Below the pieces are notes generated by a model. The model worked only from the letters and a program-made list of their open reading frames with translations, did no database searches and was not told the DNA's origin. Positions 8,755 to 32,890 of a DNA stretch of 36,310 nt are shown piece after piece; positions within the stretch are counted from its first letter, which is position 1, and every line of letters begins with the position of its first letter. The DNA lies in NCBI GenBank assembly GCA_903934285.1, contig CAIZNN010000099.1, positions 1 through 36,310 of the forward strand, written 5' to 3'. The stretch is from Akkermansiaceae bacterium. GTDB lineage: Bacteria; Verrucomicrobiota; Verrucomicrobiia; Verrucomicrobiales; Akkermansiaceae. The translations under genes and the position numbers were made by a program.

Positions 8755-10116
8755 ATGCCAGCCACCAAAGTCCTACCAAACCTCTTGATCGTCGATGATG
8801 ACGAATCGCTGCGCAACTTGCTGCTCATGGCGGCAAGGGGGCGGGGGTGGCATCCGGTGGCGGCCGCTTCCAGCACCGCTGCGTACCGCTGTCTCAAGCC
8901 CGGCATCAAAGCCGTGGTGCTGGACCACGGGCTGCCAGACGGCGACGGCATCCAGGCACTCGGCCGCATGCGCGAGCTTCGCCCCGACGTGCCGGTGATC
9001 ATGCTCACCGGGCTCAACGATGCGGAAACCGCAGTGCGGGCGCTGCGGGCGGGCGCGGACGACTACCTAACCAAACCGTTCGAATTGGAGCGCCTGTTCG
9101 GGGTGATTCGGGACGTCTGCCACTCGCGCCGCCAGAATTCCGGCGCGGAAGCGGCGGAGACCGGTGGCCTGCCCGCCAGCCGCGTTGAATTGTTGGAAGA
9201 GACCCGCAGCCCGGGCATGCGCGAGTTATTCCAGCGCATGCACAAGGCGGCCCAGCTCGATATCACCCTGCTGTTGACCGGCGAAAGCGGCACCGGCAAG
9301 ACCTTCATCGCACGTGAAATCCACCGCATGAGCCCGCGGGCCGCCGAGGCCTTCATTCCCGTGAGTTGTCCGGCATTGCCGCGCGAGTTGCTCGAGTCGG
9401 AGTTGTTCGGCCATGAGCGCGGCGCCTTCACCGGCGCCACGGCCACCCGGGAGGGCCGCTTCGAGCAGGCCACCAGGGGCACCATCTTGCTCGATGAAAT
9501 CGGCGACCTGCCCGGCGAACTCCAGCCCAAGCTGCTCACGGTGCTGCAAGACCAGCAGTTTTTCCGGGTTGGGGGCAACCGGATGCTGCGCACCGACGCG
9601 CGGATTGTGGCCGCCACCAATATCGACTTGCAGGCACGGGTGACGGCGGGCAGCTTCCGCGAGGATCTTTACTACCGGCTCAATGTGTTGGAGTTGCACC
9701 TGCCCGCGTTGCGCGAGCGCATCGAGGACCTGCCCGGGTTGGTGACGACAATCTTGGCCCGCATCGCGCGCAAACGCGGCAGGGACTCGTGGCCAGTCAC
9801 CGCCGCCGCCGTCGGGATGTTGGCAAGCCATCCCTGGCCCGGCAACATCCGCCAGCTCGAGAATGTGTTGGAGCGGGCGACCGCCTTCGCTGAAGCGGCG
9901 CAACTCGACGAGCGCGACATCGTCCCTCTGCTCGAAGGTCATTACCGCACGCCGGCACCAGACAACACCCCGGGCAGCTCACTCCAGGAAGTGGAACGCC
10001 AGGCGTTTCTTGCTGCCTACCAACGCAGCGGACGCAACAAGGCGCGCACCGCACGTGACCTCGGCATCGCGGAACGCACCGTCTACAATCTGCTGGCCCG
10101 CTATGACGCCAAATGA
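8755..10116 (+). CDS. Sigma-54-dependent response regulator (NtrC family)
   Basis: 453 residues from ATG 8755; an earlier start at 8656 would add a non-conserved leader. The receiver (~8-120) has the acidic pocket (LIVDDDES), phospho-acceptor Asp57 in VLDHGLPDGDG, and TKPF. The AAA+ domain (~150-375) carries Walker A GESGTGKT (from 176), GAFTGA (223-228), which contacts sigma-54, LLDEIGDLP as Walker B, and the arginine-bearing LYYRLNVLELHLPALRER. The end (KARTARDLGIAERTVYNLLARY) is a Fis-type helix-turn-helix. All parts for activating sigma-54 RNA polymerase are present. No cognate kinase is upstream. The repeat cluster and -24/-12 promoter that follow suggest it drives the downstream kinase operon. 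Confidence 0.95.
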   Translation: MPATKVLPNLLIVDDDESLRNLLLMAARGRGWHPVAAASSTAAYRCLKPGIKAVVLDHGLPDGDGIQALGRMRELRPDVPVIMLTGLNDAETAVRALRAGADDYLTKPFELERLFGVIRDVCHSRRQNSGAEAAETGGLPASRVELLEETRSPGMRELFQRMHKAAQLDITLLLTGESGTGKTFIAREIHRMSPRAAEAFIPVSCPALPRELLESELFGHERGAFTGATATREGRFEQATRGTILLDEIGDLPGELQPKLLTVLQDQQFFRVGGNRMLRTDARIVAATNIDLQARVTAGSFREDLYYRLNVLELHLPALRERIEDLPGLVTTILARIARKRGRDSWPVTAAAVGMLASHPWPGNIRQLENVLERATAFAEAAQLDERDIVPLLEGHYRTPAPDNTPGSSLQEVERQAFLAAYQRSGRNKARTARDLGIAERTVYNLLARYDAK

Positions 10117-10218
10117 CGCGCTTGTTAGCAAGCGCGGCCTGTCGGCACGTGTTGCCGCAACCCCCCTGCCCGTCGATGACGCACCCGGCATCCTGGAGCG
10201 CGCGCGGACATGGAATTC

Positions 10219-10268
10219 ATGCAAGATTTCATGCAAAGATTGCAGCATGCCTGCAATTTTTGCAGCAT
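10219..10268 (+). promoter_or_regulatory. TGCA-rich repeat cluster, likely activator-binding (UAS) region
   Basis: This 50-base stretch packs ATGCAAGATT (10219-10228), ATGCAAAGATT (10231-10241), the inverted repeat TTGCAG-N5-CTGCAA (10240-10256), and TTGCAGCAT twice (10240-10248 and 10260-10268). The two TTGCAGCAT copies sit 20 bases apart, close to two helical turns. It lies 75-125 bases before the -24/-12 promoter and is much more AT-rich than its surroundings. That is the usual place for NtrC-family enhancer sites. The binding protein is inferred to be the response regulator encoded just upstream. Confidence 0.6.
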
Positions 10269-10341
10269 CTCGCAGCCCAACCCGCCAGGGCACTACCCGC
10301 ACAATCCTTTTGATACAAGAACCTTTAGATTTTCCAAAATT

Positions 10342-10357
10342 TGGCATGGCGTTTGCG
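10342..10357 (+). promoter_or_regulatory. Sigma-54 (-24/-12) promoter
   Basis: TGGCA at 10342-10346 and TTGC at 10353-10356 match the core TGGCAC-N5-TTGC, with T in place of the last C of the -24 box. The conserved GG (10343-10344) and GC (10355-10356) are exactly 12 bases apart as the family demands. Transcription would start near 10368. This excludes the ATGs at 10346 and 10364 as starts for the next gene and favours GTG 10421. Confidence 0.75.
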
Positions 10358-10420
10358 GCGATTATGGGATCAGACCATAAGGTGGCCCCATTCCACCCTC
10401 GATCTCAATCCTCCGCTGCA

Positions 10421-11104
10421 GTGACTCATCCGTACCATCTTGTTGTTAAGGGGCCCCCTCCGAGGCCGCCTATCGCCCTTTATCTCTGCCTGCTATTGGC
10501 AGGCCTGCCCGCCACCGCAACCGCCGCGCCCGGTGACGCCGCGCCGCCTGACACCATCGAGCGCCCGCTCATCGCATCGTCCAGCGACGAACCGACCGTC
10601 GCTGACGCCGCCATTTTTGCTTGGGAGCTGCAACCCCTGCCGGGACCATCCAGCGGCAGCGGGGAGGATGGCGGCGACGCGCTAGCCCCACAATCGGCAA
10701 CTGCCGGAGGGGACGCCGCCCTGACCGGAGACGAACTCATCCACCGCATTATCAACGGTGGCGGCGACCCGCCCAGTGCGTTCTGGGACACCAACAAAGC
10801 TTGGGCCGGCCTCCTTCCCGCCCGTGCTGAAATCATGGACTGGAGCGGCATCAACCGCGGCGGATCGAAGGATGGCAAATCCGACGACACCCCCGCGGGT
10901 CCCGCCGCGGCGGCTGCCGGCAAACTGTCGGCAGCGGTGGTAGCGCTCGATCAGGCGCCGTCCCAGGGGTTTATCATTGCCTTTTTCTGTGTCGCGCTCG
11001 TCAGCGCCTTGGCTGCGCTGCTGGCATATTGCGCGGTGGTTTCTTGCGTGTCGACAACCCGTGGCAAGCTGCGCCCGGCCACGCCAAACTCTCCTGTGAA
11101 CTAG
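10421..11104 (+). CDS. Small exported protein with C-terminal membrane segment, first gene of the sigma-54 operon
   Basis: 227 residues if read from GTG 10421; the frame is open much further upstream, but the predicted transcript begins near 10368. Residues ~17-35 (IALYLCLLLAGLPATATAAP) look like a cleavable signal peptide. The middle is low-complexity and acidic, with Gly/Ala/Pro/Asp-rich stretches and one better-ordered patch (LTGDELIHRIINGGGDPPSAFWDTNKAWAG). A second hydrophobic segment near the C-terminus (FIIAFFCVALVSALAALLAY) is followed by a short basic tail. The predicted layout is a periplasmic domain held by a C-terminal helix. I recognise no family. Its place ahead of the receiver and kinase genes suggests a sensory or adaptor role. 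Confidence 0.6.
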   Translation: MTHPYHLVVKGPPPRPPIALYLCLLLAGLPATATAAPGDAAPPDTIERPLIASSSDEPTVADAAIFAWELQPLPGPSSGSGEDGGDALAPQSATAGGDAALTGDELIHRIINGGGDPPSAFWDTNKAWAGLLPARAEIMDWSGINRGGSKDGKSDDTPAGPAAAAAGKLSAAVVALDQAPSQGFIIAFFCVALVSALAALLAYCAVVSCVSTTRGKLRPATPNSPVN

Positions 11105-11138
11105 CAATGGGCCTTGAGGCGAACCCGAACGAACAACC

Positions 11139-11705
11139 ATGAAAATCTTGATTGCCGAGGACGACAATGTCTCCCGCACGATTCTGGCGAGCGTGTTGGC
11201 AAAGGGCGGGCACGAAGTGGTGAAAGCCATCAACGGCACCGAGGCGTGGCAGGTGCTGCAACGGCCTAACCCACCCCGCTTGGCGATCCTCGATTGGATG
11301 ATGCCGGAAATGGACGGCCTTGAGGTCCTGCGACTGGTGCGCAGCCTGCCAACCATCTGTCCGCCATACATCGTCATGCTCACGGCCCGCGATGGGAATG
11401 CCGACATTGTCGCCGGTCTCAATGCCGGGGCCAATGATTACTTGACCAAGCCGTTTGAGCCGAACGAACTGCTCGCCCGCGTCGAGGTCGGCCAGCGTAT
11501 CGTCGAAATGCAGTTGCTGCACAGCCGGCGGCTGGAAAGAGCCCAGATCTTCCGCGTCGATACCGGCCGGCGCCTACACGAGTTGCACGACGAGCTGGCC
11601 GCCAAGGAGGCGCAATTGCGCCGCGCCCAGGCGGCGCTGCTTGACTTGGAGGCGCGCCCACAACGGCCCCAGGAATGCTGCAAGCTTTGTGGCTCCACGG
11701 CATGA
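11139..11705 (+). CDS. Stand-alone response-regulator receiver with coiled-coil tail
   Basis: 188 residues. A full receiver (1-125) has the acidic pair in LIAEDDN, Asp52 in ILDWMMPEMDG, the conserved Thr in MLTA and Lys in TKPFEPNELLARV. The remaining ~60 residues are a charged helix (RRLHELHDELAAKEAQLRRAQAALLDLEA) with heptad-like spacing, then a short Cys-containing end (ECCKLCG). There is no output domain, so it probably works as a phosphoryl shuttle or a protein-binding switch between the kinases encoded next and other partners. It begins 34 bases after the previous gene and should share the sigma-54 transcript. Confidence 0.9.
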   Translation: MKILIAEDDNVSRTILASVLAKGGHEVVKAINGTEAWQVLQRPNPPRLAILDWMMPEMDGLEVLRLVRSLPTICPPYIVMLTARDGNADIVAGLNAGANDYLTKPFEPNELLARVEVGQRIVEMQLLHSRRLERAQIFRVDTGRRLHELHDELAAKEAQLRRAQAALLDLEARPQRPQECCKLCGSTA

Positions 11706-11769
11706 TGGAGCAGGGCCCCGGCGGCGGTGACAGGACAAGCCAGGGCGGAAAAAATTGATATTGCGCGGC

Positions 11770-11779
11770 GGGGGGGGGG
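11770..11779. repeat. Run of ten G in the gap before the first hybrid kinase
   Basis: A homopolymer of ten G lies about 55 bases before the kinase start, in a 128-base gap between two genes of one likely operon. Such tracts slip in replication, but here the run is outside any gene, so it could only alter leader spacing or structure. It could also be a sequencing weak point. Confidence 0.5.
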
Positions 11780-11833
11780 CAGTTACAAGTCGGGCCAAGC
11801 AGTTGCAGGCGGCAGCGCCAACGGTCTTTTCGT

Positions 11834-14800
11834 ATGTTGAAAAACGACAAATTGCGTCAACGCGCCGAAGCGTTGGCACGCGAGCAAGCCGCCGCCGATG
11901 CGGCGCCTCCTGCTGAAGGCATGTCGGCCGAGGCCGCCCGGCAGGCACGCCACGAGTTGCGGGTGTGCCGGATCCAACTGGAGTTGCAGCAGGCGGAATT
12001 GCGCCTGGCCCTGGAGCACACGGCGGTGTTGCAAGCGTCACTCACCTCCCCTGCTGCGGCCGGCCGTGATGGCCGCGCCCCGCGGCGCGCGGCGGCACGA
12101 GCCAGCGCCCCGGAGGCCCACAAGTTCCAAGCAGGGGTCATCGAGTCGCTGCTGGTGAGCATTCCCGACCTGATTTTCTACAAGGATATCGACGGCGTTT
12201 ATGTGGGTTGCAACCCGCCGTTCACTGAGTTTGTCGGCCGCCCGAAGGAGCAAATCATCGGCCGCACCGACTTTGACCTCTTCGATAAAAACGTCGCCGA
12301 ACAGTTCCGGGCCTACGACCAAAGCATGCTCGCATCGGGCCAATCCCGCCATAACGAGGAGGAAATCACCTATCCGGACGGACGCAAAATCCTCATCGAC
12401 ACCCTCAAGACGCCCTACTGGAGTCCGGACGGCGAACTCATCGGGGTGCTCGGCATTGGCCGCGACATCACTGCGCACATGCGCACCGAGGAGCAATTGC
12501 GCCGCACCACCGACCGGCTGTCGCTGGCAGTGCGCGCCGGGGGCGTGGGCATCTGGGTCTGGGACGTGGCCAACAACCGGCTGGAATGGGACGAGCAAAT
12601 GTTCCGGCTTTATGGCATCGGGCCGCAGCAGTTCGACGGGGTCTACGAGGCGTGGCAAGCGGGGTTGCACCCGGATGACCGGCAACGCTGCGACGCAGAA
12701 ATCCAGCTGGCGCTGCGCGGCGAAAAAGAATTCGACATCGAATTCCGCGTGCGCTGGCCCGACGGCTCCACCCACACCATCCGCGGCTTCGCCTCGGTGG
12801 AGCGCGATGGCGCCGGCCACCCGCTGCGCTTGATTGGCACCAACTGGGACATCACCGCCCAGAAATGCGCCGAGGAGACCCTGCGCGAGAGTGAGGCGAA
12901 TTTCCGCACGTTTTTTGAAACCGTGACCGACCTGATCCTGGTGAGCGCACCCGACGGCCGCGTCCTGTTTGCCAATAGCGCCGTCAGCCACATGTTGGGC
13001 TACTCCCCCGGTGAACTCCTCAACATGCATTTGCTCGATCTGCATCCGCCCGCCAAGCGGCAGGAAGCCGAAGCAATTTTCGGCGGGATGCGCCGTGGCG
13101 AGCGCGAAAGTTGCCCGTTGCCGCTGGCGCGCAAGGATGGCGGCTTGGTGCCGGTGGAGACCCGGGTGTGGCCTGGCAAGTGGAACGGTGTGGCTTGCAT
13201 CTTTGGCATCTGCAAAAACCTGACCGAGGAGCAGGAAGCCAAACAGCGCTTTGAGCGCCTGTTCCGCAGCAACCCCAGCTCAATCGCACTTAGTTGCCTC
13301 GAGGACCATCGCTTCCTGGACGTCAACGACGCCTTCGTGCAAACCCTCGGCTATGCCCGCGATGAAATCCTCGGCAAGTCCGGCACCGAACTCGGCTTGT
13401 TCACCCAACCCGCGCGCTATGCCGCAGCGCAGGCCGAAGTGATGAGCTGCCGCCGCCTGGCCGATTTCGATATGCAGATCCGCCACAAGGACGGCGCCAT
13501 TCTCGACGGCATCTTTTCCGGTGAGGTCATCCACAGCCAGGGACGGCAATACCTGCTGACCGTGATGGTCGACATCACCGAACGCAAACGCGCGGCAGCT
13601 GAACTGGCGCGCTTGTCTGCGATCCAGCACAAGCTGATGGATCTGGCCTCCCGCTTTGTCAATGTGCCAACGGAGCGGCAGGACGCCGCGATTGACGAGT
13701 CGCTGGCGGCCATGGGGCAGCTTATTCATGCCGACCGCGCCTATCTGTTCACCTACGACTTCGACGCCGGGATCATGTCCAACACCCACGAATGGTGCGG
13801 TCCGGAGATCAGTCCTGAAATCGACAACCTGCGCGCCGTGCCCAATGCGATGCTGCCGGGGTGGGTCGACGCGCACCGGCAGGGCAAGGCGGTGCATGTG
13901 CCCAGCGTTGCCGCGTTGCCGCCGGACGGGTTCTTGCGGCAGGTACTCCAAGAGCAGGGGATCCGCTCGTTGATCACGCTGCCGTTGCTGCAAGGGGATG
14001 CCTGCCTCGGCTTTGTCGGCTTCGACGCGGTGCGGGAAGAACGCGTGTGGTCTGAGGAAGAGTTGGCCCTGCTGCGGGTATTGGCCGAACTTTACGCCAA
14101 TTTCGAGGCCCGGCGGAAGGATGAAAGCCGTACCCGCGAACTGCAACGCCGACTGATCGAGGCGTGCGACTCGGCGCAGGCGGCGGTGCTGGCCAAGAGC
14201 TTGTTTCTGGCCAACATGTCGCATGAGATCCGCACCCCGCTCAATGCCGTCCTCGGCTATGCCCAAATCATGCAGCACGAGTGCGGCAAATGCGAGAATG
14301 GCAGGCGCCTCGGGTCGCTCATCCGCGGCGCCGAGCATTTGTTGGAGTTGCTAACCGATCTGTTGGAGCTGGTGCGCAGCGATGTGCGCGAAATCGCGCT
14401 GGCACCCTGCGACTTCGATTTCCATCAGATATTGGAGGATGTGCGCCTGATGTCCATGCGCCATCCCGGGACCCACGGGCTGACGCTGGAGGTGGCGCAT
14501 GCCGCGGACCTGCCGCGCTTCATCCATGGCGACTCCGGCAAGATCCGCCAGATCCTGGTCAACCTGGTCGGCAATGCCATCAAGTTCACCTCTGTGGGGG
14601 GCGTGCGGGTGGCCGCCTCACTGCTGCCGGGCCAAGAGCCGCACGACCTGTTGCTTGCGGTGGACGTTGCGGATACCGGCTGTGGCATCGCGCCAGACGA
14701 ATTGGAGCGCATCTTTGATTTGTTCGAGCAATCGCAACACGGGCATAAATACAGCAAGGGTGCCGGCTTGGGGCTGTGCTTGAGCCGGCGTTATGCGCAG

Positions 14801-15592
14801 GCACTCGGCGGTGATATCACCGTCACCAGCCGTCCCGGCGAAGGCAGTTGTTTCCGCCTCACCTTCAAGGCGCGGGCGGCTAGCGGCGGCGCCGCCGAGC
14901 AATTGCGCTGCGGCAGCGTGCTGCGCTTGGCAGCGGCGCAGGCGGCATGCCACGTGTTGCTGGTGGATGATGAGCCCGACAACCGCGACATGCTCACCGC
15001 CATGCTCACGGCGGTGGGTTTCACCGTCGAGGCGGTGGCTGATGCGGCACAAGCCCTGGACCGGTTGGGCCGGCTGGGCGGCACGGGTGGTATTGATCTG
15101 GTACTGATGGACAAACGCTTGCCGGAGATGGACGGGTACGAGGCGATTGGCCGCCTGCGCGCCCTGCCCGGCGGGCGCGAGGTGCCCGTGGTGGTGGTCA
15201 CCGCGTCGGGTGCCGCCGATGAAGAACACCTGGCCCGCGCCGCCGGGGCCGATGGCTATGTTTCCAAGCCTGTGCGCCGCGAGCAATTGCTCACCGAGAT
15301 CGGCAGCCTCACCCGGGTGCGTTACGAATATGAACCCCTGCCTCCCGTAACCTCAGAAGCAACGGATGCCACCCCACTTGATTCGATGGTTGCGGCGCGC
15401 TTGGAGCCAGAGCAATGCCGGATGCTGGGCGAAGCGCTGCGCCGCGGTGACATCCGGCGTTTGCGCGAGTTGATAGCAGCGCTTGACTCGGATCGCGCCG
15501 CGCTAGCCATCCGCATGCGCGCGCTGATTGATGTCTATGACTACGAGCAGTTACACCAGTTGCTCGAAGCAATGAAAGGAACTACCGTATGA
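11834..15592 (+). CDS. Hybrid sensor histidine kinase: four PAS, GAF, kinase, receiver
   Basis: 1252 residues with no membrane segment, so probably cytoplasmic. After a coiled-coil start (~1-70) come four PAS domains (about 102-220, 228-345, 350-468, 473-590), the latter part of the series closing with VDITERKR. A GAF domain follows (~595-755). HisKA has His797 in NMSHEIRTPLNAVLGYAQIM. The ATPase domain has the N box (NLVGNAIKF), DTGCGIAPDELERIFDLFEQ and GAGLGL. The receiver has Asp1045/1046, Asp1093 in LMDKRLPEMDG and a conserved Lys in SKPVRREQLL. A ~75-residue helical tail closes the chain and has no HPt-like His motif. It overlaps the next gene by ATGA. From the GAF on it is nearly the same as the kinase at 16817. 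Confidence 0.93.
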   Translation: MLKNDKLRQRAEALAREQAAADAAPPAEGMSAEAARQARHELRVCRIQLELQQAELRLALEHTAVLQASLTSPAAAGRDGRAPRRAAARASAPEAHKFQAGVIESLLVSIPDLIFYKDIDGVYVGCNPPFTEFVGRPKEQIIGRTDFDLFDKNVAEQFRAYDQSMLASGQSRHNEEEITYPDGRKILIDTLKTPYWSPDGELIGVLGIGRDITAHMRTEEQLRRTTDRLSLAVRAGGVGIWVWDVANNRLEWDEQMFRLYGIGPQQFDGVYEAWQAGLHPDDRQRCDAEIQLALRGEKEFDIEFRVRWPDGSTHTIRGFASVERDGAGHPLRLIGTNWDITAQKCAEETLRESEANFRTFFETVTDLILVSAPDGRVLFANSAVSHMLGYSPGELLNMHLLDLHPPAKRQEAEAIFGGMRRGERESCPLPLARKDGGLVPVETRVWPGKWNGVACIFGICKNLTEEQEAKQRFERLFRSNPSSIALSCLEDHRFLDVNDAFVQTLGYARDEILGKSGTELGLFTQPARYAAAQAEVMSCRRLADFDMQIRHKDGAILDGIFSGEVIHSQGRQYLLTVMVDITERKRAAAELARLSAIQHKLMDLASRFVNVPTERQDAAIDESLAAMGQLIHADRAYLFTYDFDAGIMSNTHEWCGPEISPEIDNLRAVPNAMLPGWVDAHRQGKAVHVPSVAALPPDGFLRQVLQEQGIRSLITLPLLQGDACLGFVGFDAVREERVWSEEELALLRVLAELYANFEARRKDESRTRELQRRLIEACDSAQAAVLAKSLFLANMSHEIRTPLNAVLGYAQIMQHECGKCENGRRLGSLIRGAEHLLELLTDLLELVRSDVREIALAPCDFDFHQILEDVRLMSMRHPGTHGLTLEVAHAADLPRFIHGDSGKIRQILVNLVGNAIKFTSVGGVRVAASLLPGQEPHDLLLAVDVADTGCGIAPDELERIFDLFEQSQHGHKYSKGAGLGLCLSRRYAQALGGDITVTSRPGEGSCFRLTFKARAASGGAAEQLRCGSVLRLAAAQAACHVLLVDDEPDNRDMLTAMLTAVGFTVEAVADAAQALDRLGRLGGTGGIDLVLMDKRLPEMDGYEAIGRLRALPGGREVPVVVVTASGAADEEHLARAAGADGYVSKPVRREQLLTEIGSLTRVRYEYEPLPPVTSEATDATPLDSMVAARLEPEQCRMLGEALRRGDIRRLRELIAALDSDRAALAIRMRALIDVYDYEQLHQLLEAMKGTTV
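15575..15580 (+). promoter_or_regulatory. Shine-Dalgarno for the first receiver-kinase gene
   Basis: AAAGGA lies inside the end of the hybrid kinase gene, 8 bases before the ATG at 15589. It supports re-initiation at the ATGA overlap. Confidence 0.7.
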
Positions 15593-16761
15593 AAATCGAT
15601 TCGAGACAAGCAACCATTCTCATTGTTGACGACGAGCCTGAAAACCTCAATGTGCTGGAGGCCTTGCTGACTCTGGTCGGGTACCGGGTGTCGGCCTTTC
15701 CGCGCGGTGAGATGGCACTGGTGGCGGCCAGCGAGGAATTGCCCGACCTGGTATTGTTGGATATCCGCATGCCCTGGATGGATGGCTATGAGGTTTGTCG
15801 CCGCTTCAAGGCGGATGCGCGCCTGCGGCAGATTCCAATCATCTTTCTGAGTGCTTTCTCAGACCATTCCGACAAGCTGCGAGCGTTCGAGGTGGGCGGG
15901 GTGGATTATGTGCTCAAACCCTTCGCTGAAGTCGAGGTGTTAGCCCGAGTCAACACCCACCTCAGGTTGAGCCGGCATCGATTGGATCTGGAGGAACTCG
16001 ACGCCCAGCGCGTGGAGGAATTGGCCGAGGCGCATCGCCGCCTGGAGGTCCGGGATGGCACCAAAAACCCGTGGTTCAGCGTGCTGTCGCACGAAATGCG
16101 TGCCCCGCTCAGCGGGCTGCTCGGCATTTCCGAACGGCTCTTTCTGGATTTGCCGGCTAAGTCCGCCCACCACAGCATGCGCGTCGAATATGACCGCTAC
16201 AGCAAACGCCTTGAGAAGCTCATCGATGACGCGCTGGCCTTGGCGCGCCTCGATGTGGAGGCGGCGGATTTGGCGCTGCGTCCGGTGCCCTTGGCGCAGG
16301 TGCTGCGCAATGCCCTGAGCGCGCTGGCGGGGCAAGCACCTGGCATCGACGTGCTCTCGGCGCTGGACGCGGTGGAGGAGGTCACGGTCATGGGAGAACC
16401 GGAGTTGCTGTTGCGCGCCTTCATCGACTTGCTGCTCACCGCCACCCGCTGTGTAGCGGCCGGCCAAGCCCTCAGCGTGACCACCCGCCTTACCGACGGC
16501 CGGGCCAAGGTGACGCTGCTCACCAGCGGGAAAACATTGTCGGCACAAGCCTTGGATACGTTTTTCGAGGTGGGCGGCCAACCCCTGCTGCTCCCTGACG
16601 ACAGCGGCGACTTGGGACTGGGCGCCGCCCTGGGCAGTCGCGTCATCCGCCTGGCCAAGGGATGGGTCTCGGTGCGCAACGGCGCGCAGCAGGGCCTGGT
16701 CATCGAAATTTCGCTGCCCGCAAACCCGCCCCACGCCTCGCCATCGAGGCGCTTGAACTAA
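15589..16761 (+). CDS. Receiver plus degenerate histidine kinase (likely pseudokinase)
   Basis: 390 residues. The receiver (~8-125) is intact: LIVDDEPENLNVL, Asp58 in LLDIRMPWMDGYEVCRRFK, and Lys in LKPFAEVEVLARV. A coiled linker leads to a HisKA-like helix with His168 in VLSHEMRAPLSGLLG. The ATPase half is broken at its key sites. Where the N box should read NLL.NA it reads DLLLTATRC. The DxGxG box is replaced by LLTSGKTL. The G2 glycines survive only loosely (GDLGLGAALGS). It can probably accept phosphate on the receiver, and perhaps on the His, but not bind ATP normally. It is coupled to the hybrid kinase before it by ATGA. Its sister at 20278 has all motifs. Confidence 0.88.
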   Translation: MKIDSRQATILIVDDEPENLNVLEALLTLVGYRVSAFPRGEMALVAASEELPDLVLLDIRMPWMDGYEVCRRFKADARLRQIPIIFLSAFSDHSDKLRAFEVGGVDYVLKPFAEVEVLARVNTHLRLSRHRLDLEELDAQRVEELAEAHRRLEVRDGTKNPWFSVLSHEMRAPLSGLLGISERLFLDLPAKSAHHSMRVEYDRYSKRLEKLIDDALALARLDVEAADLALRPVPLAQVLRNALSALAGQAPGIDVLSALDAVEEVTVMGEPELLLRAFIDLLLTATRCVAAGQALSVTTRLTDGRAKVTLLTSGKTLSAQALDTFFEVGGQPLLLPDDSGDLGLGAALGSRVIRLAKGWVSVRNGAQQGLVIEISLPANPPHASPSRRLN

Positions 16762-16816
16762 CTATTCCAGCGGTTCTTGTGCCGCGCCAAGCAGCCAATC
16801 TCCAGACTCATCGTTC

Positions 16817-19800
16817 ATGCCTCATCCAATCAATTACGCCAAGGCGATTCTGCGCGAGACCTTGTGCGTCGGCGCTTGGAAGCCGGTGATGTTGCTGGTG
16901 GCTGGCCTGACCCTCACCGGCTTGGCAACCCGGGCGGTGCGCTTGGCGACTGACGCGAGGGCAGTGCAGGGGTTTGACTACCAATGCCGCGAGGTGCAGG
17001 CCAAAATCGAGGAGCGTCTGCGTGACCATGAACAAATCCTGCACAGCGGAGCGGCGTTCTTTGCCGGTAGCGACGGGGTCACCCGCGAGGAATGGCGCGA
17101 GTTTTTCCAGCGCCAGAAAGCCAGTCAGAAACTGCCCGGCATTCTGGGCTTCGGGTTTACCCGGCTGGTGCCGCGTGAGCAGCTGGCAGAGCATGTTAGT
17201 GCGATGCGGGCCGAAGGCTTTGCCCAGTACCGGGTGTGGCCGGAGGGGGACCGGGACCCCTATTCGTCGATCGTGTTCTTGGAGCCGTTTACCGGACGCA
17301 ACCTGCGCGCCTTCGGCTACGACATGCTTGCAGAGCCGGTGCGGCGGGTGGCCATGGAGCGGGCGCGGGATGGCGATGAGGCGGCGCTCTCGGGCAGGGT
17401 CGTGCTGGTGCAGGAAACCGAAGAGGACGTGCAGGCCGGCACTTTGATGTACGTGCCTGTCTATCTGACCGGTGCGCCCCACGCCTCGGTGGCTGAGCGC
17501 CGCGCGGCCATCATCGGCTGGGTGTACAGCCCCTATCGGATGGGCGACCTGATCGAGGGGGTGCTGGCGGGCGGGGCCGGCAAGCCTCTGGAAAACATTC
17601 AATTGCGCATTTTCGATGGCAACTCGCCGGCTCCGGCCGCTTTGCTTTACCCTTGCAATGACCGCGGTCGGCACGGACCACAAGGAGATGATTGCCGGAC
17701 CAAACAGATGACGATCGATGCCGCCGGCCGCCAATGGCTGCTAAGTTTTGTGCAGATTGGAAGACCTGGCACCGGCCCGGATTACAGCAAAGTGTGGTGG
17801 GTATTGGTCGGCGGCTCGGCCATCAGTCTGCTATCGGCCGGCTTGCTGTTGGTGTCGACCAAAACCTTGTTTGATGCCCGCAACATCGCCGTGCGACTCA
17901 CTGCCGACTTGAGACAGAGCGAGCAACGCTGGAAATTCGCCCTGGAAGGTGCCGGCAATGAAGTGTGGGACTGGAGTGCGGAGACTGGTGAGATCGTGTT
18001 CTCCAATCGTTGGAAGGCCACACTGGGGTATGCCGACCAGGAGGGCGGTTCGACAGCGGAGGAATGGAAGGGCCGGCTGCATCCCGATGATAGGACGAGG
18101 GCGCTGGAGGCGCTGCAAGCGCATATGGACAATTCCTCCGTGCCCTACGTGAGCGAATACCGGATCGCGGACAAGGAAGGGGCTTGGAAGTGGGTGTGCA
18201 GCCGCGGCATGGCGGTGATTCGCGATGCGGCGGGACGCCCGCTGCGCCTGACTGGCACCATTGAGTACATCACCGAGCGCAAGCGGGTCGAGGAGGGGTT
18301 GGCCGGGCAGGCGGCGATTCGGCAAGCGCTGACCCATCTGGCCACCGGATTTGTCAATGTTGCGGTGGAACGGCAGAGTGTTGCCATCGACGAGTCGTTG
18401 GCGATCATGGGCCACTTGGTGGGGGCGGACCGCGCCTGGCTGGCCCGATATGACTTTGTCGCTGGCGTCCTGTCCCGCGGCCACGAGTGGTGTGCCGCGG
18501 GCATCGCGCCGGAAATTGCCAGCCAACAGGCGCTGCCCATCACATCGCTTCCGGACTGGGTGAAAATGCATCAACGCGGCCAGGTGGTCCACATCCCGAG
18601 TGTGGCCGCCCTGCCCACGGCCAACAATTCGCTACGCCAGGCGCCCCGCGCGCAGGCGGTGCGTTCGTACGTTACCGTGCCGTTGCTGCATGGCGGGGTT
18701 TGTCTTGGGTGTGTTGGGTTTGAGACCATCCGCCACGAGCACCATTGGTCGGAGGATGAGTTGGCGCTGCTGCGGATCCTGGCCGAAATTTACGCCAACT
18801 TCGAGACCCGCCGCGAGGTTGAAGGTCATACCCGCGAACTGCAACACCGGCTGATCGAGGCGCGCGACTCGGCGCAAGCGGCGGTGCTGACCAAGAGCTT
18901 GTTCCTGGCCAACATGTCGCACGAGATCCGCACCCCGCTCAACGCCGTTCTCGGGTATGCCCAAATCATGCAACTGGAGTGCGGCAAATGCCCGAATGGC
19001 GCCCGCCTCGGGTCACTCACCCGCGGCGCCGAACATTTGTTGGAGTTGCTAACCGATCTGTTGGAGCTGGTGCGCAGCGATGTGCGCGAAATCGCGCTGG
19101 CACCCTGTGACTTTGATTTCTATCAGATATTGGAGGATGTGCGCCTGATGTCCATGCGCCATCCGGGCGCGCGCGGACTGACGCTGGAGGTGTCGCATGC
19201 CACAGACCTGCCGCGCTTCATCCATGGCGACTCCGGCAAGATCCGCCAGATCCTGGTCAACCTGGTCGGCAATGCCAACAAGTTCACCTCTCAGGGCGGC
19301 GTGCGGGTGGCGGCTTCGGTGCTGGCTGGCAAAGAACCGGGCCAGCTGTTGCTCGCGGTGGACGTTGCAGATACCGGCTGTGGCATCGCACCAGACGAAT
19401 TGGAGCGCATCTTCGATTTGTTCGAACAGGCGCAACACGGGCACAGGAGTGGCAAGGGCTCCGGCTTGGGGCTGTGCTTGAGCCGGCGTTATGCGCAGGC
19501 ACTCGGCGGTAATATCACCGTCACCAGCCGGCTGGGCGAAGGCAGTTGTTTCCGCCTCACCTTCAAGGCGCTGGTGGTTGACGGCGCCGCCGCCGAGCAA
19601 TTGCGCTGCGGCAGCGTGCTGCGCATGGCGCCGGGGCAGGCGGCATGCCGCGTGTTGCTGGTGGATGATGAGCCCGACAACCGCGACATGCTCACCGCCA
19701 TGCTCACGGCGGTGGGTTTCACCGTCGAGGCGGTGGCTGATGCGGCGCTAGCCCTGGAGCGGCTGGGCCGCCCGGGTGGCAGCGATCTGGTGCTGATGGA

Positions 19801-20281
19801 CAAACGGTTGCCGGATATGGACGGGTACGAGGCGATTGGCCGCCTGCGCGCACTGCCCGGCGGCCGCGATGTGCCGGTGCTGGTGGTCACCGCGTCGGGT
19901 GCCGCCGACGAAGCGCAACTGGCCCGCGCCGCCGGGGCCGATGGCTATGTTTCCAAGCCTGTGCGGCGCGAGCAATTGCTAACCGAAATCGGCCGTGTCA
20001 CCCAGGTGAGTTACGAATATGAGTCGCCGCCGCCCGTCTGCCTGGTTGCCGTGGACGTCGCCGACCTCGATCCCGCCACCTTGGCCTGCCTTTCCGCCGC
20101 GCAATGCCAGGCCCTCGACCACGCCCTGCGCAACGGTGACATCCGGCGACTGCGTGAGGAGGTCAGCGAGATTGGCCGGGAGCATGCCGCGTTGGCGGTC
20201 CGCCTGGGGGTCTTGGTCAATGCTTATGCCTATACTCGTCTGCTTGGCCTGCTTGAGGCCGCCAAAGGAGGTGCCCAATGA
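16817..20281 (+). CDS. Membrane hybrid sensor histidine kinase: CHASE, PAS, GAF, kinase, receiver
   Basis: 1154 residues. A first membrane helix (~20-42) and a second (~325-347, VWWVLVGGSAISLLSAGLLL) bracket a periplasmic CHASE domain (about 75-290; motifs include HSGAAFFAGSDGVTREEW, LPGILGFGFTRLVP, and YDMLAEPVRRVAMERARD). CHASE domains sense small extracellular ligands. Inside follow one PAS (~360-492, ending YITERKR), GAF (~500-660), HisKA with His702, an ATPase domain (NLVGNANKF, DTGCGIAPDELERIFDLFEQ, GSGLGL) and a receiver with Asp995 in LMDKRLPDMDG. A helical tail of ~75 residues ends the chain. Everything from the GAF on mirrors the kinase at 11834. It ends in an ATGA overlap with the next gene. 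Confidence 0.94.
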   Translation: MPHPINYAKAILRETLCVGAWKPVMLLVAGLTLTGLATRAVRLATDARAVQGFDYQCREVQAKIEERLRDHEQILHSGAAFFAGSDGVTREEWREFFQRQKASQKLPGILGFGFTRLVPREQLAEHVSAMRAEGFAQYRVWPEGDRDPYSSIVFLEPFTGRNLRAFGYDMLAEPVRRVAMERARDGDEAALSGRVVLVQETEEDVQAGTLMYVPVYLTGAPHASVAERRAAIIGWVYSPYRMGDLIEGVLAGGAGKPLENIQLRIFDGNSPAPAALLYPCNDRGRHGPQGDDCRTKQMTIDAAGRQWLLSFVQIGRPGTGPDYSKVWWVLVGGSAISLLSAGLLLVSTKTLFDARNIAVRLTADLRQSEQRWKFALEGAGNEVWDWSAETGEIVFSNRWKATLGYADQEGGSTAEEWKGRLHPDDRTRALEALQAHMDNSSVPYVSEYRIADKEGAWKWVCSRGMAVIRDAAGRPLRLTGTIEYITERKRVEEGLAGQAAIRQALTHLATGFVNVAVERQSVAIDESLAIMGHLVGADRAWLARYDFVAGVLSRGHEWCAAGIAPEIASQQALPITSLPDWVKMHQRGQVVHIPSVAALPTANNSLRQAPRAQAVRSYVTVPLLHGGVCLGCVGFETIRHEHHWSEDELALLRILAEIYANFETRREVEGHTRELQHRLIEARDSAQAAVLTKSLFLANMSHEIRTPLNAVLGYAQIMQLECGKCPNGARLGSLTRGAEHLLELLTDLLELVRSDVREIALAPCDFDFYQILEDVRLMSMRHPGARGLTLEVSHATDLPRFIHGDSGKIRQILVNLVGNANKFTSQGGVRVAASVLAGKEPGQLLLAVDVADTGCGIAPDELERIFDLFEQAQHGHRSGKGSGLGLCLSRRYAQALGGNITVTSRLGEGSCFRLTFKALVVDGAAAEQLRCGSVLRMAPGQAACRVLLVDDEPDNRDMLTAMLTAVGFTVEAVADAALALERLGRPGGSDLVLMDKRLPDMDGYEAIGRLRALPGGRDVPVLVVTASGAADEAQLARAAGADGYVSKPVRREQLLTEIGRVTQVSYEYESPPPVCLVAVDVADLDPATLACLSAAQCQALDHALRNGDIRRLREEVSEIGREHAALAVRLGVLVNAYAYTRLLGLLEAAKGGAQ
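20264..20272 (+). promoter_or_regulatory. Strong Shine-Dalgarno for the second receiver-kinase gene
   Basis: AAAGGAGGT sits five bases before the ATG at 20278, within the last codons of the CHASE kinase gene. It is a near-perfect anti-16S match, stronger than the AAAGGA site serving the sister gene at 15589. Confidence 0.8.
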
Positions 20282-21408
20282 CTAGCGGGGATGCCCGGGC
20301 GGCCCTCATGATCGTCGATGACGAACCGGGCAACTTGGATGTGTTGGAGGAATTGCTGACCCAAGCGGGCTATCGTGTGGCGGCCTTTCCCAGCGGCGAG
20401 GAGGCGTTGGCAGCGGCCCACCTCAAGGCACCGGATCTGGTGTTGCTCGATGTGCGCATGCCCGGCATGGACGGCTACGAAGTGTGTCGCCGCTTCAAGG
20501 CCGACGAGGCCCTGCAGCCCATTCCCATTCTTTTCATCAGCGCGCTGTTGGCGACCGATGACATTGCGGCGGGCTTTGCCTGTGGCGGGGTGGACTACCT
20601 TGGCAAACCGTTTCGCAAGGCCGAGGTGCTGGCCCGGGTGCGCACCCATCTGGCACTGCGCGATGCCTATGTGAGGCTGGCCGCCGAACACGCCAATTTG
20701 CACTTGCTCGAGCGCCAGCGCGACGTGCTCACCCACATGTTGGCGCATGACATGCGCGGCCCCTTGCAAGTGATAGGCGGCCATCTCGAACTGCTGGCAG
20801 GCAACAGCGCCAGTGCGGAGCGCTCCGACGATGACCGCGACAGCTTGCAAGCCGCGATGCAGGGGGTGCACTTCCTCAACCAATTGGTATGCACCATGGT
20901 GGATTTGAGTCGCCTCGAAACGGTGGGCGTGCCCGTGGACCTGCAGCCCGTCACGGTGGCGGCGGTGCTTCAAGCCGCCCTCGCCCAGGCGCTTGACCCG
21001 GCCAACCGCTGCCGCATCGTCCAACACATCGCCGCGGATTGCCCATGGTTGCTGTGCGATCTGGATCTGAGCGCGCGCATCGTCGCCAATCTCCTCACCA
21101 ACGCATTCAAACACGCGCCGCCGCCCGGCGAAATCGTGCTCGGCGCAACCCCTCACCCCGACGGCGTCCGCCTCTGGGTGAGTGACCGCGGACCGGGCAT
21201 TCCCGCCCAGTTCCACCAACGGATTTTCGAGAAATTTGCCGTGGCCGAGCAACCGCCAGGCCATGCGCGGACTGCCACCGGGCTGGGCTTGGCCTTTTGC
21301 AAATTGGCGGTCCATGCCCAAGGCGGAGCCATCGGGGTCGACAGCCAGCCTGGCAGCGGCAGCACGTTTTGGTTCACTCTGCCGGCGGCACCGACCACAG
21401 GGCGGTGA
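20278..21408 (+). CDS. Receiver plus intact histidine kinase
   Basis: 376 residues. The receiver (~8-122) has MIVDDEPGNLDVLEELL, Asp58 in LLDVRMPGMDGYEVCRRFK and Lys in GKPFRKAEVLARVR. The kinase half is complete: His157 in LAHDMRGPLQVIGG, N box NLLTNAFKHA, DRGPGIP, FEKFAVAEQ and GLGLAFCKLAV, closing PGSGSTFWFTLP. Proteins with an N-terminal receiver and C-terminal kinase pass signals from one phosphorelay to another. Here the upstream partner is presumably the hybrid kinase with which it overlaps by ATGA. No response regulator with an output domain follows, so the final target may be the sigma-54 regulator at 8755 or lie elsewhere. Confidence 0.93.
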   Translation: MTSGDARAALMIVDDEPGNLDVLEELLTQAGYRVAAFPSGEEALAAAHLKAPDLVLLDVRMPGMDGYEVCRRFKADEALQPIPILFISALLATDDIAAGFACGGVDYLGKPFRKAEVLARVRTHLALRDAYVRLAAEHANLHLLERQRDVLTHMLAHDMRGPLQVIGGHLELLAGNSASAERSDDDRDSLQAAMQGVHFLNQLVCTMVDLSRLETVGVPVDLQPVTVAAVLQAALAQALDPANRCRIVQHIAADCPWLLCDLDLSARIVANLLTNAFKHAPPPGEIVLGATPHPDGVRLWVSDRGPGIPAQFHQRIFEKFAVAEQPPGHARTATGLGLAFCKLAVHAQGGAIGVDSQPGSGSTFWFTLPAAPTTGR

Positions 21409-32569: not shown

Positions 32570-32890
32570 GGAAAGTTGTTCCCAACAGGCCGATTCGAGA
32601 GTGGCCCCTGGAGCAGCTCGGCGGAGGATCGGGATTTTGGGAGCAACTATCCGAAGGCTGTCCCGTGGGCAAGCATCACACCACCAACGCGTTCCGACTC
32701 AGCCCCTGCCAATGGGCCAAGCACCTCAGTTGGAAGCAGACCGCGAAACAGTTCCATACGTCATGGGACACCGTGTTCCGCAGCGCCCAATGGGTGGTGG
32801 ACTACGGCCTGTGCCACCGCTGTCCGGACGGCATCACCGCCATCGGAATCAACGAGGTGGCATACACCTTGCCGGTTTCAACGACTCTCG
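32570..32890 (+). pseudogene. Transposase remnant, ISL3-like
   Basis: One frame from 32665 reads GKHHTTNAFRL, QWAKHLSWKQTAKQFHTSWDTVFRSAQWVVDYGLCHRC and DGITAIGINEVAY. This resembles the helix-turn-helix middle of ISL3-family transposases up to the first Asp/Glu of the catalytic domain. Upstream, pieces such as AVPWAS occur in another frame, so there are frameshifts. The whole DDE catalytic part and both inverted ends are missing. About 110 residues of a ~400-residue protein survive. It is inactive. Confidence 0.6.

Follow-up and report, generated by a model that had tools for sequence, protein, structure and literature searches.

Within the 36,310-nucleotide stretch of Akkermansiaceae DNA analysed here (the window), a cluster of short repeats followed by a promoter-like sequence occupies the region 10219-10357 between a regulator gene and an orphan gene, which raises the question of what this region controls and which protein acts on it. 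On sequence grounds we give a probability of roughly 0.86 to the reading that it constitutes the control region of a sigma-54-dependent unit, with the product of the 8755 gene activating it through paired dyads.

The regulator, the promoter and the paired dyads

The relevant features of the window are:
8755..10116, + strand: sigma-54 response regulator with receiver, AAA+ domain containing GAFTGA and helix-turn-helix, likely the activator (Pfam, translation, NtrC-type PDB relatives)
10117..10136, + strand: perfect 8-bp hairpin right after the regulator, with no T run (inverted repeat)
10219..10224, + strand: additional half-site ATGCAA
10231..10245, no strand: dyad 1, ATGCAA-AGA-TTGCAG, one mismatch
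10251..10265, no strand: dyad 2, CTGCAA-TTT-TTGCAG, perfect
10306..10320, no strand: third conserved element CCTTTTGATACAAGA, of CCTT-N7-AAGG type (nine-promoter alignment)
10342..10356, + strand: -24/-12 promoter TGGCATGGCGTTTGC (exact pattern match)
10368, + strand: predicted transcription start (counted from -12; the 5' ends of an RNA family in relatives match)
10421..11104, + strand: orphan protein of 227 aa with hydrophobic segments near both ends, GTG start plausible (codon statistics)
11139..11705, + strand: receiver-domain protein (Pfam)
11834..15592, + strand: PAS/GAF hybrid histidine kinase (Pfam)
15589-16761, + strand: receiver-HisKA protein (Pfam)
16817-20281, + strand: CHASE hybrid kinase (Pfam)
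20278-21408, + strand: receiver-kinase (Pfam)

The initial annotation had placed the repeats directly behind a regulator gene with an intact GAFTGA motif, and indeed the gene ends at 10116 and its translation contains the motif; with its receiver, AAA+ domain and helix-turn-helix, the protein has the make-up of an NtrC-type enhancer-binding protein. A search of 9900-12000 for terminator-like sites found none. The proposed TGGCA and TTGC boxes with 12-base GG-GC spacing are likewise borne out as an exact -24/-12 element, its GG at 10343-44 and its GC at 10355-56 giving a G-to-G distance of 12 bases. Exact copies of TGGCAYRNNNNTTGC number two in the window (0.17 expected) and 29 in the 4.8-Mb genome, against one for the reversed pattern. 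One of the 29 boxes stands in front of rpoN, and GlnK-like and outer-membrane-like genes, names that are our reading of the translations, also appear to lie behind such boxes. The rpoN gene that the annotation presupposed is encoded in the genome (Sigma54_AID at C26, E 5.1e-14). The window's other exact box, at 32858-32872, has no dyad upstream and a PilT-like gene (33040) 182 bases downstream.

The repeats preceding the promoter resolve into two tandem dyads of the form YTGCAA-N3-TTGCAG, each 15 bp long and spaced 20 bp centre to centre, at 104 bp (dyad 1) and 84 bp (dyad 2) upstream of the -24 T. Both the ATGCAA repeats (10219 and 10231) and the TTGCAGCAT repeats (10240 and 10260) are present as described, as is the inverted repeat TTGCAG-N5-CTGCAA (10240-10256); the latter was discarded as the binding unit because other sites keep CTGCAA-N3-TTGCAG, and it is this arrangement, present twice at 20-bp spacing, that is conserved. 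Both dyads that the window contains with up to one mismatch fall in this region, where 0.16 would be expected in the entire window, and two were reached in one of 100 shuffles. With its box spacing, an rpoN gene in the genome and predicted activator dyads within the range of ~80-200 bp upstream, the region appears to be a true sigma-54 promoter served by a paired enhancer.

The perfect dyad CTGCAA-N3-TTGCAG occurs at two places in the genome, 10251 and C115:12466, so that the suggested search for the cluster elsewhere was positive already in the same genome. The C115 copy (12466-12480) precedes an exact -24/-12 box (C115:12580, TGGCACGGCGATTGC) by 107 bp, and the window copy its own by 84 bp, measured from the dyad centres; the C115 copy also has a partner with two mismatches 20 bp further on. 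The chance that a given dyad would precede any of the 29 exact boxes by 76-115 bp is ~2.4e-4. Among these 29, the window and C115 alone have a dyad with up to two mismatches within 130 bp upstream; another (L083) has a three-mismatch dyad and lies inside an 868-aa frame. The target at C115 is a 213-aa protein without a Pfam match, whose gene scores as coding and the overlapping 234-aa frame on the reverse strand as non-coding. Dyads with up to two mismatches are found at 290 genome places against 156 for the reversed control, so that weak matches alone mean little, and a one-mismatch dyad at C50:16408 was set aside, its 3-kb locus lacking any TGGC[AG][CT]-N5-TTGC box. Since many of the 29 exact boxes lie inside long mechanical reading frames, any single match can be due to chance; that boxes and repeats alike are coincidental here is nevertheless scarcely credible, given that perfect dyads coincide with exact boxes at two places in the genome and that dyad promoters recur in relatives.

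The predicted start near 10368 would direct transcription into the orphan gene, whose 227-aa product has no Pfam or NCBIfam match; a search of 195 genomes gave it weak matches only, the best (1.4e-5) covering a part of the protein at 32%. The promoter had been taken to decide in favour of GTG 10421 as the start codon; that codon is plausible, and codon statistics lean its way over GTG 10382, the 13 codons 10382-10420 scoring as non-coding, but the promoter does not settle the choice. A transcript starting at 10368 excludes ATG 10364, which lies upstream of it. The frame of the gene is the best of three in five of six stretches of 120 bases, the first (10382-10501) being the exception. The receiver-domain gene at 11139 probably belongs to the same transcription unit and the kinase gene at 11834 possibly does, with further signalling genes spanning 15589..21408 behind the latter. 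A run of ten G residues (11770-11779) lies in the gap that precedes the kinase gene.

Dyad promoters beside orthologues of the regulator

Orthologues of the regulator are present in 19 of 194 other genomes at 57-80% identity (some matches being partial), while the next regulators reach at most 47% among the matches listed; in a tree the 20 orthologues, including that of the window, group together with 100/100 support. GSFTGA replaces GAFTGA in the regulators of G108, G090 and G009. The G070 regulator (L050) does not match the E-x-G-x-[FY]-TG pattern of this motif, and its locus is without a dyad promoter. Two loci with regulators of a sister group, 45-46% identical, have perfect dyads of the form CTGTAA-N3-TTACAG nearby (L061 3246; L062 4054 and 4084, 30 bp apart), and no -24/-12 was seen in these two loci with up to one mismatch.

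Counted by genome at the loci examined, a dyad with up to two mismatches accompanies a -24/-12 box in 13 of the 19 orthologue genomes; three more (G059, G108, G009) have weak dyad promoters, and in three (G022, G070, G029) such a promoter is absent or chance-like, the G022 scan match (TGGCGTGCTTTTCGC) being of the latter kind. A scan for the combination gave 17 hits across 24 loci (276 kb), three of them in loci fetched for earlier hits (C115, G035, G078); 80 unrelated loci (730 kb) of differing base composition gave no hit. The repeat cluster is found beyond the window's own genome as well, beside regulator orthologues and at nearly fixed spacing. In the type A layout, seen in the window, C115, G046, G037, G019, G055, G006 and G020, the dyads lie at about -85 and -105 from the -24 T, the outer one often with three mismatches in relatives; G059 has a weaker form, with dyads of two and three mismatches and GA instead of GC at -12. 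The type B layout belongs to the RNA genes described below and has a dyad at about -95, accompanied, wherever two can be made out, by another at about -116 or -126.

The targets of these promoters vary between genomes. In G037 and G019 the type A promoter precedes a gene for a 162-aa membrane protein and then the regulator itself, with a similar arrangement in G059; in G046 the target is a LuxR-type response regulator, in G055 and G020 proteins of ~100 aa with a common hydrophobic tail, and in G006 no obvious gene follows. The small reading frame of G055 has its only convincing relative in G020 (44%, E 5.2e-7), where a gene with a PEP-CTERM-like end (by eye; no Pfam match) comes after the small protein. 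The tail common to the two small proteins (L098 6830-7138 and L110 2696-2941, both on the reverse strand) reads ESEVSIGPLL-GITM---MRR-R.

The main reading has to contend with a downstream gene that is an orphan, with targets that differ, and with other activators that could read the dyads. The genome encodes further proteins of this kind, with at least four matches to the 8755 regulator at E up to 1e-60 (eight of 58 candidates scored), and neighbourhood alone proves nothing; the promoter might then depend on sigma-54 with another activator, such as an NtrC-like paralogue, on the dyads and the 8755 regulator a bystander. This is unlikely, as the dyads occur at the loci of this regulator's own orthologues (the 13 of 19 genomes above) and precede the regulator's own operon in G037 and G019, the two sister-group loci having a different dyad. 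Palindromes are also typical of repressors, and the dyads could serve one, or some other DNA-binding protein, with the -24/-12 box working without them. The sigma-54 holoenzyme, however, requires an AAA+ activator, and across loci the dyad pairs keep about 85, 95 or 105-126 bp from -24, as enhancers would, which leaves such an arrangement very improbable. It is thus likely that the 8755 regulator binds the dyads, and most likely this neighbouring protein that switches the promoter on.

A further element emerged from a gap-free alignment of nine type A promoters on -24, in which 7-column windows were compared with 300 random-shift controls. Between about -40 and the -24 box the windows exceed the 95% control level, many of them even the control maximum. 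The 95% level is passed over the third element, the -24/-12 region and dyad 2 and not over dyad 1, and part of the column excess is attributable to descent, since the nine include close relatives. The third element has the consensus CTTT-N6-AAGG, fits poorly in C115 and G055, and was missing at 10306-10320 from the initial annotation, whose list of elements was to that extent incomplete. In three RNA promoters (G090a, G078a, G108a) a CCTTGAACGTAAG-like block was seen by eye at equal distance. The element probably binds a further factor; its fit to the IHF consensus is only partial.

A small RNA family in relatives

A block, TTCTCTGGGGGGAGAA, was first seen at the predicted start of three promoters (G108, G090, G027), and its pattern gave further copies. 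The exact pattern TTCTCNGGGGGGAGAA occurs 13 times in the 195 genomes, 11 of them in regulator-bearing genomes and all 11 with a -24/-12 box; the other two, hairpins identical to the RNA 5' end in G185 and G120, genomes without the regulator, were rejected for having no -24/-12 in place. A covariance model trained on the 11 exact copies, with the promoter letters left out, gave 16 matches (E <=1e-3) in nine of 195 genomes, comprising the training copies, one copy each in G055 and G038 (already known from the one-mismatch pattern) and, newly found, a tandem array of three in G032 spaced 309 bp apart. Each of these genomes has one to three RNA genes:
L042 3016-3117 and 3914-4018, + strand: RNA genes
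L043 1136-1242 and 85-198, - strand: RNA genes
L049 3018-3122, + strand: RNA gene
L104 1951-2033, + strand: RNA gene
L223 4536-4623, + strand: RNA gene
L210 1500-1604, + strand: RNA gene
L198 1415-1517, - strand: RNA gene
L199 2377-2483 and 1401-1517, - strand: RNA genes
L235, L254 and L258, each from 1501, + strand: RNA genes
L040 from 3110, - strand: RNA gene
L051 from 1287, + strand: RNA gene

A -24/-12 box with up to two mismatches to TGGCAYRNNNNTTGC lies 26-28 bases upstream of all 16 RNA genes, the training copies having been chosen partly for this box and the G032 copies not. Among 18 weaker model matches, with loci for 14, none of the 14 has such a box and two have a four-mismatch version. 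Eight of the 16 RNA genes have a dyad with up to two mismatches, seven only one with three, and G090c none. The nine RNA genomes all belong to the 20 that carry the regulator; for independent genomes, an assumption that does not hold here, the probability of this would be 1.8e-10.

The RNA is ~80-115 nt long and folds into three hairpins, one at the 5' end, a second behind it and a long terminal one, followed in some copies by T runs; its 5' end, GUUCUC-YGGGGG-GAGAA, falls at the predicted sigma-54 start. In hairpin 2, 97.8% of cells are paired and four of five pairs show double changes, as seen in 10 of the 16 copies chosen for a gap-free stem alignment, a choice that leans towards the stem. 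Of five measures, all except the number of pair types, which is not raised, place this hairpin above all or nearly all shuffles. The 5' hairpin is nearly invariant in the training set, with no covariation, and its outer pairs appear weaker in G032 (by eye). A divergent version in G048 was noticed by eye and missed by the covariance model: TCCCGGGGGGGG, together with a terminator-like hairpin, lies between the regulator and a weak promoter (TGGCACACCACGAGC).

Rfam searches covering 17 different loci from the relatives, with an E limit of 1, returned no family beyond two chance-level matches, and the window gave no match at gathering scores. The small RNA was not found in the window's genome by the pattern with up to one mismatch or by the model under strict filters. 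A candidate in G046 (C427, E 0.0058) was ruled out as a copy for want of a -24/-12 box; the hairpin GATCTCCGGGGGGAGAT at L238 from 1501 (G046:C427:16666) resembles the RNA 5' end and has no such box. The tree of regulators places the window in one group with nine others (100/100), of which G055 and G048 have an RNA or RNA-like gene, as do eight of the ten regulators outside this group, the exceptions being G022 and G070. The tree suggests that the small RNA may be the older target of the wider regulator family, and that it may have been lost or replaced in the window's branch, whose lineage would use the same switch for protein genes.

Known systems and a proposed mechanism

The locus resembles NtrC-type sigma-54 systems in its -24/-12 box, its tandem dyads ~85-105 bp upstream, its adjoining activator with receiver, AAA+ domain and GAFTGA, and the presence of rpoN, but differs in the sequence of its dyad, CTGCAA-N3-TTGCAG, and in the extra conserved element between dyads and -24; against the model of NtrC proper (TIGR01818) the 8755 regulator scores 385.1, below the cut-off of 558.6. 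It is also similar over its length to PrsR of the PrsK/PrsR system of PEP-CTERM genes (TIGR02915; score 349.8, cut-off 502.6), for which an RpoN-dependent target with a predicted enhancer is described (PMC9850573). The PEP-CTERM-like protein of G020 fits this comparison, whereas the window's target has no PEP-CTERM tail.

The Vibrio LuxO-Qrr system shares a response regulator that activates sigma-54 promoters, TGCA-based dyads and, in the relatives, small RNA genes in one to three copies that begin at the sigma-54 start. The sequences behind the dyad promoters, however, have no Qrr match in Rfam, and the searches of the window's genome gave no RNA. Qrr action needs Hfq, whereas Hfq (PF17209) was found in none of the 195 genomes here by a search that was positive in five of 14 control genomes. 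The 8755 regulator scores 282.8 against the LuxO model (cut-off 800), and the LuxO site, TTGCAWWWTGCAA (PMC10162802), differs from CTGCAA-N3-TTGCAG. The relatives' RNA circuit thus appears to work like LuxO-Qrr but falls outside it by these measures. A literature search of titles and the beginnings of abstracts, with subscription papers mostly outside its scope, revealed nothing recognised as this system.

The elements, their recurrence beside regulator orthologues and the second genome site of the same layout are read directly from the sequence; for the events at the promoter we infer the following course, its binding and catalytic steps by analogy with the NtrC family. A neighbouring hybrid kinase, one of several, may phosphorylate the 8755 regulator, whose dimers would then occupy both CTGCAA-N3-TTGCAG dyads, two helical turns apart, and assemble. 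The assembled regulator would loop to RNA polymerase-sigma-54 at 10342-10356, where its AAA+ ring would open the promoter, and transcription from near 10368 would read the orphan gene at 10421 and probably the signalling genes behind it.

On a broader scale, we regard it as slightly better than an even bet that a circuit resembling LuxO-Qrr evolved separately in a lineage other than Vibrio, in which hybrid kinases act on the regulator, and this in turn, via CTGCAA-N3-TTGCAG and sigma-54, turns on one to three copies of an Hfq-independent small RNA with a G-run loop at its 5' end, and that the window's branch lost the RNA and rewired the switch to an operon of membrane-protein and signalling genes. 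An uncharacterised activator family hereby gains a likely recognition sequence. The RNA family, without a match in the searched Rfam release, would represent a multicopy sigma-54-driven small RNA system running parallel to that of Qrr, in bacteria where Hfq is not detected, and among related species the enhancer appears to have switched between RNA and protein gene targets.
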